A stretch of 64,000 nt of DNA, from NCBI GenBank assembly GCA_016845365.1, contig JAERST010000015.1:1-64000 (forward strand). Direction: 5' to 3'. This DNA is from Methanobacteriota archaeon (lineage in GTDB: Archaea > Thermoplasmatota > Poseidoniia > Poseidoniales > Thalassarchaeaceae). Each line of letters begins with the position of its first letter. Within the stretch, counting starts at the first letter, position 1. Below the pieces are notes generated by a model. It made no database searches. It had not been told where the DNA came from and saw nothing but the letters and a program-made list of their open reading frames with translations. Made by a program: the position numbers and the translations under genes. Below, piece by piece: positions 1 through 18,328 of the stretch.

Positions 1-3000
1 ATCAGACCATCCATCATTATCATCATCGTCATCGAGGAAATCGCACCAATCTAGACCATCTGTATTGATGGGATAATCGCTTGGATCTGATGCGTTTGAA
101 TTGCAACGATTCTCTTCATAATCAGAATAACCATCACCATCTGAATCTACACCCTCGTGACCGTGCAGGTGAAGAGACCAACCGCGCAGAATTCCGTCGG
201 CTAAATTGAGCGAACTATTGTCTCGAATCTTGATTGTCCATTTGCCAACATCTTCCTCCAAATCTTGATACTGGAAAAGAGCATTCTCACCCCAATTATG
301 GACCGTTGTAAATGTCCAATTGAGCGACCCATTCGCATGAGAAGGACGGTCAGGAGGATTGTAGAGTTTACTCAGAATGGATTCCGTTCCGAATGGAGAG
401 ATTAGACGAATCTCCAAATCACCTCGGCGTTGATGATCAATATCCAAGTGAACCTCGGCCGACTCCATGAAGAAGGCATGTTTGTGAGGTTGAACATCAG
501 TTTGGTCTAATTCGACGATTATTTCTGTCCAATTAGCATCATTTCCAGGAATCGTTTGAGAAAGGCCGTATTGACCCGCACTCATATTGCTCTCATCTGG
601 AAGTCCTGTCCAATTTAGCGCCTTGTAGACTGCATGACCAGCATCGACTACTCCGAATCCATAATCATGCGATACTTTCATTCCTGCTCCATTGAATGCC
701 CAAGACTCATTAGTTGGGTCATTCTTTTTCGCAGTGATTGCCAGTAGATGTTGCACATCTCTCCAAGTCAAATTGGAATTGGCTTCTAACATTAAAGCGA
801 CTACACCTGCGACTTGAGGTGCTGCGAATGACGTGCCACTCTCGCATGTGTAAAATTCACCTAATATTACCGTAATTGCCTTATGACAATTTACGGCTGA
901 ACGATCAATTCCACCATAAGCTACAACAAATATATTGCTTCCAAACTCTGAGTACGGAGTATCAGATCCATTGTTATCAATTGCTCCAACAGTAATTGAA
1001 TATCGACTTACCGCGATTTCATTATAATTTGCCGAATCACTTTTCTCAGCATTATTTCCAGCAGTTGTGACTATTATTGAACCTAGTGAATTTCTACCTC
1101 TGTATGAAATATTTTCCAGCATCGAGGTCGTATTAGAATAATCTCTGAATGAAAATGGACTGCGAGCGTTCAGATAAATATCGGTTGCATTCATTCGATC
1201 ACTGATGTATTGTGAGGTTAATTGATCACCCCATACACGAAATACATCATATATTGACCCAGGTGATACTCCAACAATACCCTGCGAATTGTTCGCTTCA
1301 GCCATCATTATTGACAGTACATTTGTACCATGAGTTGCGTCAGTATTCGAGGCCCAACCAGGAGGTATAGATAAGGTCACATTTTGATCGTTTTCAATGT
1401 AGTCCCATGTGTAATTGACTCCCCATAAATCTCGATGTCGAAAATCAAATCCAACATCTGAATATGCAATCTTAACACCAGCGCCGTCATAATAACCCCA
1501 AATTGATGTTAAATTCAGGTCTTCGCCCACTGTGCCGGAATTTTTCAGTCTAGAATGAGGAGCAGTCATAGCTGAACCATTATTCAGCAAGTACCACTGA
1601 GACGGGAATTGTGGATCCGAAAAATTTGAATCAAAATCTGAATCGAGCACAAAATTCCTTGCGACACCCTCCCAATAACTTTGTTTTGAAGCCACTAAAC
1701 TTGTAGGCAAGATTGACCTTACCAAGTCTGAGTTTAACAAATGGATTGCTAGAGGTTTAAAGAAATGTGGATTTTCAACGTTTAGAGTAAACTCAAATGG
1801 ATGTATGATATCAATCGAAGAATTTTGACTAATCGACATGTTCAGAAAAATATTATTTGAATCTAGTGTAGTACAGGTTGAAAAATATGAATTAAACAAA
1901 CTGGGCGGTACTGAACTTGTAAGATGCCACTCGCCTTTCAATGGTGTAAAATTCGTGTTTTGAAATAAAATTTCACTCTGCTGAATTAAGTTCCGTAGCC
2001 ATTCTGAGGAACCCCAATTAGAGTAGTAAGTCGAGAAATATTCAGGTTGCAATGTTAATGAGGACATCTCACTCAATTCTTCACAAAAATCATTCAGAGA
2101 TGCAGAATTATTCCCGGCGCACTCGAAAAAAAGATGTTCGCGATTATTTGGTTTTGAAAGATAATCTTTTGAATCGTAGCCACATCGTATCTCGACAATG
2201 TCAAGATAACCATCACCATCATCGTCTAAATCGAAGATATCGCATGTATAATCCATATCCAAGTCGACGAGCCCACAATCTCGCCGTTCCAAAGTACTTG
2301 ATTGATTATTGAGTATTTTCTCGATTTGCAAGAGGATGTTCCTATCGCTTTGATTAAGAGATAATGCAAGAAGTTGATTGTTCCATATATCAAGTGAGAA
2401 ATATCCAGTTGGAATGTTCCCTTCAACGCCAAGCGATATATTCCCAGACCTTAAAATATCTAAATCATCCCAGTGGTAACTGTATAATTCTGGTAAAACA
2501 TCATTCAGGAAGTAAATAGTGCTATTTTCCTTAATCGAATGATATTCCAAATACCACCTAGACTGATTGTGAGAATATTCACTAGGATGTGGGGGTATGC
2601 CTATTGTAGAGAATAAACCAAAAAATTCTGATATTTCAGAAATAAGTTGTTTTCCATCGCAGACAACTGAAATGTTCGAAGTTAGAGGGATTGAATTCGG
2701 ATTGATTAAAGAAGAACCACATTCTAATTCATAATAATTTTCGAATCCATCGCCATCCACATCACCATCTAGCGTATCACATGTTCCATCTTTGTCTACA
2801 TCCTGCGGAAAAACAGAAACATCGAGCCATGGAACTGGCTGAATTGTGTAAACGTCAGATATACAGAGGCGTTCATAATAGTCAGACCAACCGTCATTAT
2901 CAGAATCCATTAGATCGATCCCGAGTGAATTCAAATCAGTATAATTGAATTCTATTAAATCATCATTTGGCCATGGCCATTCACAGAGATAATCATCAAA

Positions 3001-3231
3001 GTTCACCACATCTGGCATTGAATAATTGTCTAGTGGATTAGAGCCACAGAGGACCTCAACTTCATCCGACCAACCATCTCCATCCGAATCAACATAATTC
3101 GCCTCGATTGGATTATCATCATCTTGAGGAGGATTTTCAACGATATTTTTCAGAAAATCAATTTGTTGATATGCTGGAAAGGCAGTAACTAGTAATAAAA
3201 CTGAAACTAATAAAAATGGTGTTGCTACCAT
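1..3231 (-). CDS. Secreted subtilisin-like protease with P-domain (C-terminus beyond window)
   Basis: An open minus-strand frame runs off the window edge, giving about 1077 residues. Counting from the ATG at 3231, it has a hydrophobic N-terminal segment, calcium-binding-type DSDGDGWSD repeats near residues 45-110, 160-175 and 265-280, and an S8 catalytic domain at about 575-840. The catalytic set is visible: Asp592 (AYSDVGFD), His634 (THGTNVLS), oxyanion Asn726 (TAGNN) and Ser801 (SGTSFAAP). A proprotein-convertase P-domain follows at about 890-1012, then more DxDGDG repeats. It is probably exported and cleaves extracellular protein. In-frame upstream TTG (3261) and GTG (3273) codons would add a basic HSKRKR stretch before the hydrophobic core, which suits a signal peptide better, so the start is uncertain. 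The gene is clearly more AT-rich than its neighbours. Confidence 0.85.
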   Translation of the reverse strand, partial: MVATPFLLVSVLLLVTAFPAYQQIDFLKNIVENPPQDDDNPIEANYVDSDGDGWSDEVEVLCGSNPLDNYSMPDVVNFDDYLCEWPWPNDDLIEFNYTDLNSLGIDLMDSDNDGWSDYYERLCISDVYTIQPVPWLDVSVFPQDVDKDGTCDTLDGDVDGDGFENYYELECGSSLINPNSIPLTSNISVVCDGKQLISEISEFFGLFSTIGIPPHPSEYSHNQSRWYLEYHSIKENSTIYFLNDVLPELYSYHWDDLDILRSGNISLGVEGNIPTGYFSLDIWNNQLLALSLNQSDRNILLQIEKILNNQSSTLERRDCGLVDLDMDYTCDIFDLDDDGDGYLDIVEIRCGYDSKDYLSKPNNREHLFFECAGNNSASLNDFCEELSEMSSLTLQPEYFSTYYSNWGSSEWLRNLIQQSEILFQNTNFTPLKGEWHLTSSVPPSLFNSYFSTCTTLDSNNIFLNMSISQNSSIDIIHPFEFTLNVENPHFFKPLAIHLLNSDLVRSILPTSLVASKQSYWEGVARNFVLDSDFDSNFSDPQFPSQWYLLNNGSAMTAPHSRLKNSGTVGEDLNLTSIWGYYDGAGVKIAYSDVGFDFRHRDLWGVNYTWDYIENDQNVTLSIPPGWASNTDATHGTNVLSIMMAEANNSQGIVGVSPGSIYDVFRVWGDQLTSQYISDRMNATDIYLNARSPFSFRDYSNTTSMLENISYRGRNSLGSIIVTTAGNNAEKSDSANYNEIAVSRYSITVGAIDNNGSDTPYSEFGSNIFVVAYGGIDRSAVNCHKAITVILGEFYTCESGTSFAAPQVAGVVALMLEANSNLTWRDVQHLLAITAKKNDPTNESWAFNGAGMKVSHDYGFGVVDAGHAVYKALNWTGLPDESNMSAGQYGLSQTIPGNDANWTEIIVELDQTDVQPHKHAFFMESAEVHLDIDHQRRGDLEIRLISPFGTESILSKLYNPPDRPSHANGSLNWTFTTVHNWGENALFQYQDLEEDVGKWTIKIRDNSSLNLADGILRGWSLHLHGHEGVDSDGDGYSDYEENRCNSNASDPSDYPINTDGLDWCDFLDDDDDNDGWSD

Positions 3232-3393
3232 TCGTTTACGTTTTGAGTGACCGGATTGCAACCTCTCTCGCACTCCTTAGTTTGGCAAATGAGATATTTG
3301 CAAAGTAGAAAAGAATTTTCCCGAATCGTAAAATGTATTCGGTAAATATGACTATCTTGGATTTTATTGGTCGGAATGACTGAAAGAGATGCA

Positions 3394-14547: not shown

Positions 14548-15663
14548 CTATTGGCGTGTGCGGTCAAACTCCCGCGCCAGAATCGTGTTGTTATCATGCA
14601 GCAATCCATCGGCCAGAAGTTGCTCGACGAGCAGCACAGAGTAGCCCGCAGCACCACGAATTGTGTTGTCTGCCATGGTCGAAAATCGCAGGCTTGTTCC
14701 TTCGACTGAGACTTCTCCGACCGCTACTGACATCGCAGCTTTGAGGTCGTGTCCGGGATGCTGAACACCCTCTCCTCCAACCCAACGGTGCTCCTCTGAA
14801 AGCGCTTCATCGACGAAAACAATCGGTCGTGACGGAGCCGATGGAAGGTCCAATTCTTGGCTCCGAGGCTTGAAATCGCGCCAGGCTCGAATCACTTGAT
14901 GGGCGCTGACTGGTTCGGCAAATTCCACGTGCAAACGCGCATAGTGGCCGTGGTCTCGCTTCACACGTTCGCACTGGGCTTCAATGCTGAATTCCGTCTC
15001 GAGGATTTTTGCTAATTCGGTTCGGACGGAGTCCGCCTCTCCTGGAATTTCGCTGGAGATTTCTTTGCCGGCGCGGCCTGCTGCGAGCAATTTGCGGCCG
15101 CCGCCGGAGAGGGCTTGTTCGGTTGAGATTGAGACTGAGGTGATCGGGGCAAGTTGAGTTAGCGGTGCGAGGGTTATTGCTAGGGGGGCGACGGTGCAAT
15201 TTGAGCAGGAGATGAGTCGGCCCTCGCCGTTTTCTGCTTGTTTTTCGAGCAGTGCGAGATGCTCGATATTGACTTCTGGGACGATTAGAGGGACATCGTC
15301 GTTGAGGCGGTGAATTTGAGCGTGAGAGACGACGATGAAGCCGGCCGCTGCGAGCGGTCTTTCGACTTGCTTGGCCGGCTCGTCAGGAAGGGCTGAAAAG
15401 ATTAGTTGAACCCCGAGTTCCTGGAAGCTTTCGATGAGGCTATCGAGGTTTTCGAGGCCACCGATTGTTAGGCCACTTTCGGGTGACCGCTCCTCATCGA
15501 GACTCCACAGACACTCATCGTGAGAGGTTCCTCTGGTCTCGTGCGAACCGATGACTGCGACCGGTTCCAACCACGGGTGGAATTGTAGACGCTGGAAGAG
15601 GCGTTGAGCAACCAATCCGGTCGCTCCGAGGATGGCGCAGCGCACCCTCCCATAGGCATCCAT
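14548..15663 (-). CDS. asd: Aspartate-semialdehyde dehydrogenase
   Basis: The 371-residue product has a Rossmann GATGLVAQR motif at the N-terminus and the active-site cysteine in CSNCTVAPLA (about residue 155). It also has a long archaeal/fungal-type C-terminal half with RDHGHYARLHVEF, which holds the catalytic histidine region. It makes aspartate semialdehyde from aspartyl phosphate for lysine, threonine and methionine synthesis. ATG 15663 (MDAYGRVRC) is preferred; a TTG at 15681 would add six residues that do not belong to the family. No other gene of this pathway is adjacent. Confidence 0.9.
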   Translation of the reverse strand: MDAYGRVRCAILGATGLVAQRLFQRLQFHPWLEPVAVIGSHETRGTSHDECLWSLDEERSPESGLTIGGLENLDSLIESFQELGVQLIFSALPDEPAKQVERPLAAAGFIVVSHAQIHRLNDDVPLIVPEVNIEHLALLEKQAENGEGRLISCSNCTVAPLAITLAPLTQLAPITSVSISTEQALSGGGRKLLAAGRAGKEISSEIPGEADSVRTELAKILETEFSIEAQCERVKRDHGHYARLHVEFAEPVSAHQVIRAWRDFKPRSQELDLPSAPSRPIVFVDEALSEEHRWVGGEGVQHPGHDLKAAMSVAVGEVSVEGTSLRFSTMADNTIRGAAGYSVLLVEQLLADGLLHDNNTILAREFDRTRQ

Positions 15664-15695
15664 ATCCGGTGGTATCGACAATCTATTCCTAAACA

Positions 15696-15756
15696 GAACG
15701 GTCCGGACCGCTCCGCAGAATCGAACATCACGTAGCGAAAAATGTCCGAACCGTTC
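15696..15756. other. Inverted repeat in spacer upstream of asd
   Basis: GAACGGTCCGGAC (15696-15708) pairs with GTCCGAACCGTTC (15744-15756) with one mismatch. A further small inverted pair (GTCCAGA/TCTGGAC) and a CGCGCGCG pair follow up to about 15816. The 219-base spacer between asd and the DUF2130 gene otherwise holds only the DUF2130 promoter. No transposase or recognisable gene is seen. Confidence 0.45.
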
Positions 15757-15845
15757 CTCGCGCGCGGGTGTCCAGACTCATCACGCGCGCGTAGCAGATG
15801 AAGGGGCATCTGGACTCACGACGCTTGCGAAGCATATTGGGAAGA

Positions 15846-15853
15846 TTAAATAC
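15846..15853 (+). promoter_or_regulatory. TATA box of the DUF2130 gene
   Basis: TTAAATAC lies about 30-37 bases upstream of the ATG at 15883. This is the right distance for an archaeal TATA box with a very short leader or leaderless transcript. No ribosome binding site precedes this ATG, which agrees with leaderless transcription. Confidence 0.5.
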
Positions 15854-15882
15854 TCTCAATTCTATTACTGCTTACGATTGGA

Positions 15883-17199
15883 ATGAAGAACATCACCTGC
15901 CCTCATTGTGAACAGATATTCGAGATTGATGCCGCTGGATATGCGGACATAGTAAAACAAGTGCGCGGAGCTGAGTTCGAGAGCGACTTGCACGACAGGC
16001 TGCAGGAAGCAGAAAAAAGGCATCAGATGGAAATCGAGATAGCGAAGAAGGCTGAATCCGAGAAAAATGCGAAAGAGTCCTTGGCGCAAGAGAAGAGGAT
16101 AACAGAACTAGAGGCAGAGAAGAAGGCACACTCTACCGAAATTGAACTCGCTAAGCGTGAAGTGATCGAGCAGAAAGACAAAGAAGCCTCAGACAAAGAT
16201 AAGCAAATTCAGAGATTGAAGGGGGAGTTGGAGGCTGAAAAGATGAGTAAGAAACTGGCAATCCAAGAGGCAACAGCACCTTTGGAAAAGGAGAAAATTG
16301 AGCTGCAAGGTAAGATAGACTCCGCCAACACGGAGCGCAAACTTCTACAGAAATCCTTGAATGAAAAGCATCAGACTGAACTCCAAACAAAGGATGCAAT
16401 CATCCGTGCCAAGGATGAGGAGATCGAACTGAGGAAGGATATGAAGTTGAAACTCTCAACGAAAATGGTAGGGGAAACTCTTGAGCAGCACTGTGAGAAC
16501 CAATTCAATTCCCTAAGAGCGACGGCATTTCCAAATGCGTATTTCGAAAAAGATAACGACATCATTGATGGAAGTAAGGGAGACTACGTCTTCAGAGAGT
16601 CTGATGACGACGAAGTTGAGTTCGTCTCGATAATGTTTGAGATGAAAAATGAGGCCGATGCTACAAAGACCAAGAAGAAGAACGAGGACTTTCTGAAAGA
16701 ACTCGATAAGGACAGAAGGGCAAAGGGTTGCGAGTACGCAGTTCTAGTCTCACTTCTGGAAATTGATAACGAGCTCTATAACAACGGAATAGTAGATATG
16801 TCTCACAAGTATCCAAAAATGTACGTTGTCAGACCTCAGTTTTTCATTCCAATAATCACAGTTCTGAGGAACGCCTCAAAGAATACGTTGAGCGCTAGGA
16901 AGGAGCTCGCAGTGTTCAAAGAACAGCATATGGACATTGAGAATTTTGAGAGCGAACTTCTCGACTTCCAAAGTAAATTTTCAAGAAATTATGACCTTGC
17001 TTCCCGCCAGTTCACTGAGGCAATTAAGAGAATTGATAACTCGATTGAACAATTGAACAAGGTGAAGGAAAATCTGCTGAAGTCAGGTAACAACTACAGG
17101 TTAGCAAACGATAAGGCTCAAGACTTGTCAATCAAGAAATTGACTAGGAATAATCCAACAATGAAGGCAAAGTTTGACGAATTAAAATTGGATGACTGA
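15883..17199 (+). CDS. DUF2130 protein: coiled coil plus PD-(D/E)XK-like domain
   Basis: The 438-residue product begins with a CPHC pair, followed by a long charged coiled coil (about 45-200). A globular domain starts at [12 protein letters not shown]-like sequence near 205 and contains KGDYVFRE and [10 protein letters not shown], as in the DUF2130 family, which is thought to be related to restriction-type and RmuC nucleases. The C-terminal third is helical again. The family is mostly bacterial. The gene is AT-rich with many AAA/AAG codons, unlike its neighbours, and sits beside another nuclease-like gene; both suggest a transferred block. A role in DNA processing or defence is inferred only. 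Confidence 0.82.
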
Positions 17200-17206
17200 T
17201 GAGAAA

Positions 17207-17238
17207 CACAAGTAATTATTCTCACAAGTAATTACTCT
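17207..17238 (-). repeat. 16-bp tandem repeat containing the stop codon of the nuclease-like gene
   Basis: Two adjacent 16-base copies (17207-17222 and 17223-17238) differ at one position. The second copy holds the last Glu codon and the TAA stop of the minus-strand gene ending at 17232. In the first copy the same place reads GAA TAA, again Glu and stop. The arrangement parallels the repeated 3' ends of fabH and two other genes. Confidence 0.7.
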
Positions 17239-17654
17239 TGATTGATATGAAGTTCAGAAATTCTCACTTCAAGCCACTCGATTCGGTTTGATTCGACAGC
17301 ATCTCTGATACGGCGTTGATTCTTGTTGAGTCTCGACTTTCCCGATTTCACCTCGACGAATTTGATCTCGATATCTCCCTCGCCATCCAATCCTTTGAAT
17401 CCGACAAAGTCAATCGGCGAACCTAGAAATCGCAATTCTTTGACACTGTTGACACAATCCATTGACCATGGCGCTATCAGTTCAGAAATATCACCCTTAA
17501 TCGTAGATCTCTGCCTATCAGCGGTTTCTTTCCTTGCGTCCTTTATTTCTACCTCACGGCTTAATTTCACGATGATTAATTTCCATACTAAGTAGATGTT
17601 CAAGACACTTAGTAAGATTATCAGAAATATGTATTCTAGTTCTGAAATCTGCAC
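17232..17654 (-). CDS. Membrane-anchored endonuclease related to archaeal Holliday junction resolvase
   Basis: This 140-residue protein has one N-terminal membrane helix (about 7-28), a short charged linker and a PD-(D/E)XK-type core. GSPIDFVGFKG supplies the metal-binding Asp, KFVEVKSGKS the E-x-K pair, and NKNQRR is also conserved in the family (PF10107 type, by recognition). It is convergent with the DUF2130 gene and shares its AT-rich composition. The substrate is unknown. A membrane anchor on a nuclease suggests action on incoming or surface-associated DNA, but this is only a guess. Confidence 0.75.
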   Translation of the reverse strand: MQISELEYIFLIILLSVLNIYLVWKLIIVKLSREVEIKDARKETADRQRSTIKGDISELIAPWSMDCVNSVKELRFLGSPIDFVGFKGLDGEGDIEIKFVEVKSGKSRLNKNQRRIRDAVESNRIEWLEVRISELHINQE

Positions 17655-17746
17655 ATATTTTGTTCTAAAACGAGGTCTCTAAAGTTATCTCACTTTGTAC
17701 AATCTAAGGCCGGAGAACTCAAGGGAAAAATCAATCTGGGAATACC

Positions 17747-18328
17747 ATGATCGACTGGGATTCGCATCAGTTCCACCCAGTCGTCCACCTCCCCGATGAG
17801 TACGAGGTTCGTGACTTCACGACAGGCGAGTATTCTCCCTCGGAGTACGAGTACGATATCGGGCGATACGATGAACTACGCCCTGGCGTCTACAATACCG
17901 ACCTCTTCCAAGGGTCACGCTTCCTTCACATTGGCATCGATATCGGCGCACCCGTCGGAACACCTTGCATGGCATTCGCAGATGGCGAGGTCTCGCACTT
18001 TGGCTACAATCCAGCCGACGGAGATTATGGCTACGTCGTCATCACAAAGCACATCCTCGACGGCATACCGATTTGGGCGCTCTATGGTCATCTCGACGCA
18101 GCCTCAGTCGAAGGAAAGTCGAGCGGTCAGAAGGTAAGCGCAGGCGAGGTCATCTGTTGGATGGGTGACCGGCACGAGAATGGAGGTTGGGAACCCCACC
18201 TTCACTTCCAACTCTGTTACGAAGAGCCCGAAACTCACGATATGCCCGGTGTTGTCGACCCAGCTGATAGGGAACAAGCGCTGGCGATTTATCCTGACCC
18301 GCGCTTGGTCCTCGGACCCATTTACTGA
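17747..18328 (+). CDS. M23-family metallopeptidase
   Basis: The product (193 residues) has the two zinc-binding signatures of LytM/M23 peptidases: HIGIDIG (about residues 62-68) and HLHFQL (about 146-151), with a YGHL segment between. No signal peptide is visible, so it may act inside the cell or be exported another way. Family members usually cut glycine-rich or peptidoglycan peptides, but archaea of this kind lack murein, so the target is unknown. Its end overlaps the convergent sugar isomerase gene by 7 bases. Confidence 0.82.
   Translation: MIDWDSHQFHPVVHLPDEYEVRDFTTGEYSPSEYEYDIGRYDELRPGVYNTDLFQGSRFLHIGIDIGAPVGTPCMAFADGEVSHFGYNPADGDYGYVVITKHILDGIPIWALYGHLDAASVEGKSSGQKVSAGEVICWMGDRHENGGWEPHLHFQLCYEEPETHDMPGVVDPADREQALAIYPDPRLVLGPIY

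Follow-up and report, generated by a model that had tools for sequence, protein, structure and literature searches.

What are two AT-rich genes for putative nucleases doing between asd and an M23 peptidase gene in a marine archaeon, and how did they come to lie there? They are found in the window (the whole stretch of DNA analysed, 64,000 nucleotides), whose genome assembly comprises 26 contigs and 1.73 Mb and is 84% complete. The original prediction saw in them an AT-rich island acquired as a module for DNA processing or defence. The features concerned are the following:

14548–15681, minus strand: asd, left border of the slot (NF006416 over cut-off, TIGR00978 second)
15682–17746, no strand: asd-M23 slot, 2065 bp in the window; its occupant in relatives is rmuC, the pair or a nuclease-like gene of a third kind
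15883–17199, plus strand: DUF2130 gene, 438 aa (PF09903, E 2.1e-83, 280 bits against a cut-off of 26.7, profile positions 2–255 of 255)
16480–16830, plus strand: putative nuclease domain within the DUF2130 gene (protein residues ~200–316)
17207–17238, no strand: 16-bp repeat in two tandem copies (94%), where the 3' ends of the two genes meet
17232–17654, minus strand: COG4741/PF10107 (Endonuc_Holl) gene, 140 aa (PF10107, E 1e-25, 90.9 bits against a cut-off of 23.8)
17568–17633, minus strand: part of the COG4741 gene for a predicted transmembrane helix (residues ~8–29; Kyte-Doolittle, stretches of 19 residues)
17747–18328, plus strand: M23 peptidase gene, right border of the slot and source of the flank tree (PF01551, E 2.3e-18)

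The island itself was confirmed as an AT-rich stretch in which a DUF2130 gene converges, at a distance of 32 bp, on the gene of a small, putative membrane-anchored nuclease, with a GC content of 0.415 over 15846–17700 against a window median of 0.564. Sliding windows of the island's length are equally low or lower in GC in 19 of 622 cases, and all those within 0.02 of the island's value start at 1–2001 or 15801–16201. Most of the window is indeed GC-richer, but its left edge, with a subtilase gene, is as AT-rich as the island, whose composition is thus not unique. The stretch 1–3273 (GC 0.37–0.43) encodes this subtilase, with a P-domain and TSP3 repeats. Both genes exceed asd and M23 in AT content at each of the five pair loci read. 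The 16-bp repeat announced between the genes is real, but it is absent from the 11–15 bp intergenic stretches of four other pairs and is therefore no conserved part of the arrangement. The inverted repeats claimed for the left side came down to one 12-nt palindrome (15696–15713) and a distant 14-nt arm (15579–15592), which look like chance matches. No repeats resembling attachment sites flank the island and the 16-bp repeat is not conserved, so that a role of the repeats as attachment sites was rejected. PADLOC 2.0.0, a release that may not include Shield, gave no defence-system match on the window, and a known defence system in its terms was rejected accordingly.

The DUF2130 protein is predicted to consist of an N-terminal CxxC knuckle, a helix of about 200 residues, a PD-(D/E)XK-like domain and C-terminal helices. 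It is 54–65% identical to the aligned bacterial and archaeal relatives, and C6, P7, C9, D234, E253 and K255 are invariant in 32 aligned sequences. We take the CxxC at the tip of the coiled coil to be reminiscent of the Rad50 zinc hook. In the AF2 model (mean pLDDT 73.8) a helix runs from residue 17 to 215, followed by a mixed sheet domain and the C-terminal helices. The strands of this domain (219–223, 235–240, 246–253 and, after a helix at 267–281, 285–290) follow the order of the PD-(D/E)XK core. The top VIA-align row for the model, McrC (6hz4, Z 7.7 over 189–330), lies within the background range of the tool; further rows include Can2 and restriction enzymes (Z 5–7.7) among other folds, all below Z 8. 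The best Foldseek match was BstEII (E 6.6e-3), and a structure search of BFVD returned no match with E of 0.001 or less. Sequence searches for solved structures with DUF2130, COG4741 and RmuC gave best E values of 0.61, 0.36 and 0.042, respectively, from matches that appear to be due to chance or to coiled coils. The hhalign probability for DUF2130 against RmuC was 31% with a shallow alignment and 7% with more sequences (0.1% in reversed-column controls).

We take PF10107, titled "Endonuclease related to archaeal Holliday junction resolvase", to be the same family as COG4741. The description of the latter in PMC1189080, a 2005 superfamily analysis, fits; its prediction was that a membrane helix precedes a nuclease domain on the cytosolic side, or else that the enzyme is secreted. 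The helix and the motif by which that analysis characterises the family are both present. An N-terminal hydrophobic helix reaching 2.5 or more on the Kyte-Doolittle scale occurs in all six COG4741 sequences (maximum 2.5 at residues 11–29 in the window protein), and the motif E-(V/I)D-E(V/I)K is invariant, with E58, I81-D82, E101 and K103 conserved in all six. A single-sequence AF2 model (mean pLDDT 52.7), poor beyond the helix, was left out of the interpretation. Both proteins had been expected to be PD-(D/E)XK-like. By family, the COG4741 protein is clearly a predicted PD-(D/E)XK nuclease, whereas DUF2130 is a tentative member, with support from the invariant residues and the predicted fold.

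How the pair came to this place becomes apparent from a survey of 148 genomes of Ca. Thalassarchaeaceae (marine group II archaea). DUF2130 is found in 14 of them (13 over cut-off), PF10107 in seven (six over cut-off) and RmuC (PF02646) in 101. The euryarchaeon Methanosarcina acetivorans, included as a control in the PF10107 search, has the COG4741 family as well. The window's genome has no RmuC, and neither of the two proteins matched PF02646, even with E values of up to 1 allowed. In the window's genus, RmuC occurs in 12 of 18 genomes, every time in the asd-M23 neighbourhood where the pair would be; 11 of these genes lie directly before M23 and one, in G029, is separated from it by two genes. 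All 12 were aligned, and the five scanned against Pfam are PF02646 proteins (E < 1e-79). Over the whole family, 100 of 108 RmuC matches lie within 300 bp of M23 and/or within 600 bp of asd. The survey is based on match coordinates, with two weak, far M23 rows (G135, G034) left out, and gave 66 asd-M23 interval rows on single contigs. Among these, G053 and G098 are counted twice each because their asd matches are split; two contigs each come from G058, G065 and G070. The 50 intervals shorter than 2.1 kb hold RmuC in 46 cases and the pair in four, and none is empty. Among the 16 rows longer than 3.8 kb, six hold RmuC, one the pair (G081), one a third family (G093) and eight none of these, all eight from genus g4. 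In this genus (L134, L135, L136, L299), RmuC lies on another contig in three genomes. The window's asd was matched in 81 of the 148 genomes and in eight of 11 genera, and the neighbouring M23 in 132.

The empty site that had been expected between asd and M23 in relatives was thus not found; rmuC lies there instead, and insertion into an empty site was rejected for this reason. Recurrence of the pair among archaea was borne out: both genes can be read in G000 (the window's genome), G036, G070, G073 and G081, and the loci of G096 and L143 end at contig ends. These five fully readable loci, from three genera, retain both genes, with DUF2130 proteins 48–83% identical to that of the window. L143 (CALDGA010000265.1) is titled Flavobacteriales, has a Thalassarchaeaceae asd neighbourhood with a DUF2130 gene adjoining asd, and looks misbinned. 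Insertion of a mobile element was rejected, because the site is occupied in relatives, no integrase was found among the slot genes and no flanking repeats were seen. Of the view that the island is an acquired module, the recurrent, patchy occurrence and the AT-richness relative to the neighbours hold, but not the mode of arrival, since rmuC appears to have been replaced in place.

Elsewhere the partners keep other company. At 80 other DUF2130 loci, neither COG4741 nor RmuC was a neighbour in the flanks examined (up to 6 kb, many loci ending at contig ends), and the pair was therefore not recovered in bacteria. The largest recurrent cluster of bacterial DUF2130 neighbours comprises seven of the 80 loci (e.g., L166:4118-5998), in which an ATPase-like ORF directly precedes DUF2130, possibly as an operon; we take the start of this ORF to resemble SMC/OLD-type ATPases. 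In the viral contigs searched, neither a DUF2130 nor a PF10107 gene was found. A second, divergent DUF2130 clade (A3) exists in the same archaeal family (L083, L084, L085, L086), with neighbours that are alike between some genomes, and L087 (G049:C12, 149–1164) carries a DUF2130 fragment beside another ORF, the start of which looks to us like a serine recombinase.

The exchange of slot contents is visible between close relatives. G036, with the pair, and G027, with RmuC, share about 91% identity on both sides and nothing in between; pair and RmuC also stand against each other in G070b/G072 (flanks 87.4%) and G072/G073 (86.9%). One RmuC may also give way to another: G025 and G035 are about 91–92% identical over 7.3 kb on each side and carry RmuCs of different deep types. 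Clustering of 91 slot RmuC proteins (at least 320 aa, 60% distance cut) gave six types, the smallest with 7 and the largest with 27 members, plus two singletons, the RmuCs of G077, G140 and G141 being missed by the typing profile and outside these counts. Identity between types is 15–40%, and the types are scattered over several genera; a simple motif pattern was found in one of 29 RmuCs of types 1–3. For 45 pairs of loci, flank DNA identity reaches 85% or more on both sides, and in 22 of them the occupants differ in type, pairs with less than 600 bp of aligned flank or less than 150 bp on either side being excluded. By flank identity, the proportion is 0/5 at 95% or more, 8/19 at 90–95% and 14/21 at 85–90%.

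The change is also local. Flank homology mostly ends within ~100 bp of the occupant's ends, and flank ORFs are less than half covered in nine of 106 cases, eight of them being the gene that adjoins the slot. If the slot has a border other than asd, the gene beside it frequently cannot be aligned either. As a control, the 68.5-kb contig of G025 was compared with G035: homology is missing for two of 50 ORFs, the slot being one of the two. Between G045 and G048 (48 kb), the slot is a non-homologous gap on both sides among the listed matches, although the ORF count (0/31) missed it owing to an overlapping ORF call; a 1.2-kb stretch is present in G048 only. On a DNA tree of M23 from 90 loci, which was built by a quick method and has a number of long branches, the occupant type changes 37 times, against a possible minimum of seven and a shuffled mean of 56.1. 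The pair alone changes four times, all forced by starred branches, as gains or losses. These data are best read as a slot refilled repeatedly with unrelated putative nuclease families, in which the pair replaced rmuC in place.

A third family takes part in this traffic and is nearly unannotated. The slot protein of G093 has 500 aa, long predicted-helical stretches, as judged by eye, and a weak, sub-threshold PDDEXK_15 match (E 0.0029). Its genes are the following:

L297:188-1687 (G093:C228): third-family gene, in the rmuC slot
L132:717-2111 (G134:C38): third-family gene, directly adjoining M23
L130:6987-8377 (G118:C5): third-family gene, a broken copy, directly adjoining M23

Two contigs of one genome, G118:C5 with the third family and G118:C12 with RmuC, have flanks ~85% identical around the exchanged part. 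Where identified, slot occupants are thus always nuclease-like by prediction, and the families have no reliable sequence relation to each other.

The relation between COG4741 and RmuC extends beyond the slot. In a class-wide sample of 292 Poseidoniia genomes, PF10107, counted over cut-off, occurs in 17 and RmuC in 210. RmuC is found in one of the 17 PF10107 genomes against 209 of the 275 others (Fisher p 6e-9, uncorrected for relatedness), counts to which genome incompleteness adds false absences. The sole exception, G070, has its RmuC on a 3.9-kb contig with asd and M23 copies of its own and is therefore likely a strain mixture. Three sub-threshold PF10107 matches (G064, G218, G241), which were not counted, all come from RmuC-positive genomes. 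In two other families, RmuC occurs in none of 11 PF10107 genomes (Fisher p 1e-7, for an inferred total of 168 genomes). PF10107 lies there in six different gene contexts, none shared by nine RmuC loci read in these families, so that the exclusion cannot be explained by a common site; the gene that adjoins PF10107 in G228 does recur 3.7 kb from RmuC in G207. DUF2130 behaves differently, as RmuC is present at the base rate (18 of 25) in genomes that have DUF2130 without PF10107. RmuC is thus excluded by PF10107, not by DUF2130, which would make COG4741 the functional substitute and DUF2130 a partner or a passenger. The two are associated over the class (DUF2130 in 8 of 17 PF10107 genomes against 27 of 275 others, p 2e-4, partly from linkage); outside Thalassarchaeaceae, DUF2130 is found in three of 11 PF10107 genomes (p 0.14). 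Neither RmuC nor PF10107 is present in 66 of the 292 genomes, and the absence of RmuC is thus either tolerated or filled by something else.

What, then, would the pair do? We regard it as reasonably probable that it has taken over the place of rmuC at a fixed slot, where COG4741 would assume RmuC's job, with DUF2130 as its partner, in defence against incoming DNA. RmuC itself has been described with a membrane helix, coiled coils and a PD-(D/E)XK domain related to McrC (PMC1189080, as cited). The window proteins share the slot and, by prediction, this plan with the RmuC family (PF02646/COG1322), and RmuC is missing from all but one of the genomes with COG4741; they differ from it in having no PF02646 match, and neither DUF2130 nor COG4741 has reliable homology to it. 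A strong N-terminal hydrophobic segment is found in 82 of 91 slot RmuCs and in all six COG4741 proteins. The RmuC plan of membrane helix, coiled coil and nuclease domain may thus be split over two proteins. COG4741, a membrane helix with a minimal PD-(D/E)XK domain, would perform the role of RmuC, and DUF2130 would be its soluble partner, a coiled coil of about 30 nm with the invariant CxxC at one end and the nuclease-like domain at the other. When viral or plasmid DNA comes in at the membrane, the coiled-coil protein would hold it for cleavage by the tethered nuclease. The cassettes could be swapped by recombination between the conserved flanks and DNA of related archaea, and it is through such recombination that unrelated nucleases would keep replacing each other.

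The defence role is suggested by the turnover, by analogy with the RmuC-based Shield. According to PMC10270631, the RmuC-domain protein ShdA of Shield is located at the membrane, degrades DNA in vitro, protects against phages and lowers transformation. Like the pair, Shield of Pseudomonas has a putative or known membrane-bound PD-(D/E)XK-type nuclease and a patchy, strain-level distribution (PMC10270631). Unlike it, the pair is archaeal and has no PF02646 match and thus no RmuC-domain ShdA protein, and Shield has accessory genes of its own. A review of defence domains lists RmuC for Shield and for a DISARM accessory (PMC10952713). Where COG4741 occurs in sister families, no DUF2130 lies within 1.5 kb (11 loci), in contrast to the pairing at the rmuC slot of the window; likewise, DUF2130 (PF09903/COG4487) matches its family over the full length and elsewhere had no COG4741 or RmuC neighbour in the flanks examined. 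Repeated exchange of deep types in place is compatible with an arms race. More tentatively, at least three unrelated families (RmuC, COG4741 with DUF2130, and the third, coiled-coil PD-(D/E)XK-like one) may interchangeably fill a dedicated membrane-nuclease function in Poseidoniia. In Thalassarchaeaceae this function would reside at the one slot, with its occupants swapped in an arms race with viruses, and the pair would be a new two-gene counterpart of RmuC immunity.

The main rival is maintenance, in which RmuC, COG4741 and DUF2130 would look after the genome, for example by removing branched or inverted-repeat DNA, and would be replaced neutrally by equivalents. The broad presence of RmuC (101/148 and 210/292 genomes) looks like that of a housekeeping gene, every slot has a single occupant and was never seen empty outside genus g4, PADLOC has no match, and E. 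coli RmuC has been linked to keeping inversions between short inverted repeats in check (PMC1189080). Neutral swaps, however, do not predict a slot that changes far more than its neighbours (the 2/50 and 9/106 ORFs above), nor the persistence of six deep RmuC types, and we consider this explanation rather unlikely. About equally doubtful is that COG4741 alone replaces RmuC and that DUF2130 came along in the same cassette by chance, as a hitchhiker or as a defence gene with no relation to it. The two other families, with RmuC missing from all 11 PF10107 genomes and DUF2130 in just three, speak for it, as does the failure of DUF2130 without PF10107 to exclude RmuC; the retention of both genes at five pair loci in three genera, and the class-wide association of the families, partly due to linkage, speak for partnership.

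Two further explanations appear improbable. A membrane nuclease might process DNA taken up from seawater for nutrition or transformation, a role proposed for COG4741 along with others (PMC1189080, as cited), yet no uptake genes were seen in the neighbourhood as far as it was scanned, and the turnover would stay unexplained; this we judge very unlikely. Slightly more remote still is selfish exchange, in which the occupant nuclease would cut the other allele and drive its own copying into the slot, like homing endonucleases. Such a process would account for precise replacement at a single site, time after time, with breakpoints close to the ends of the genes, and for occupants that are all nuclease-like where identified. 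Unrelated families would, however, each need the same target place, PF10107 sits elsewhere in other families, and non-specific DNA cleavage is reported for those RmuC domains of ShdA that were studied (PMC10270631).

Replacement of rmuC by the pair, with COG4741 as the substitute, therefore remains the reading that we favour. The families are known, and as far as searched the slot arrangement and the exclusion are new: in the open-licence literature searched, no listed title or abstract opening describes rmuC turnover, COG4741-RmuC exclusion or this pair. Widespread as RmuC is, little is understood of what it does in nature, and hardly any work in that literature deals with DUF2130 or COG4741. 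The swaps at the slot and the exclusion turn the role of RmuC into a complementation question and make DUF2130 and COG4741 candidates for the same job. The feature in the window is one state of an ever-changing nuclease slot, not an island in an empty site. Its repeated refilling makes this slot a candidate for a rapidly changing site that acts against viruses or protects the genome, and it may offer a simple place to seek immunity genes in uncultured marine archaea.
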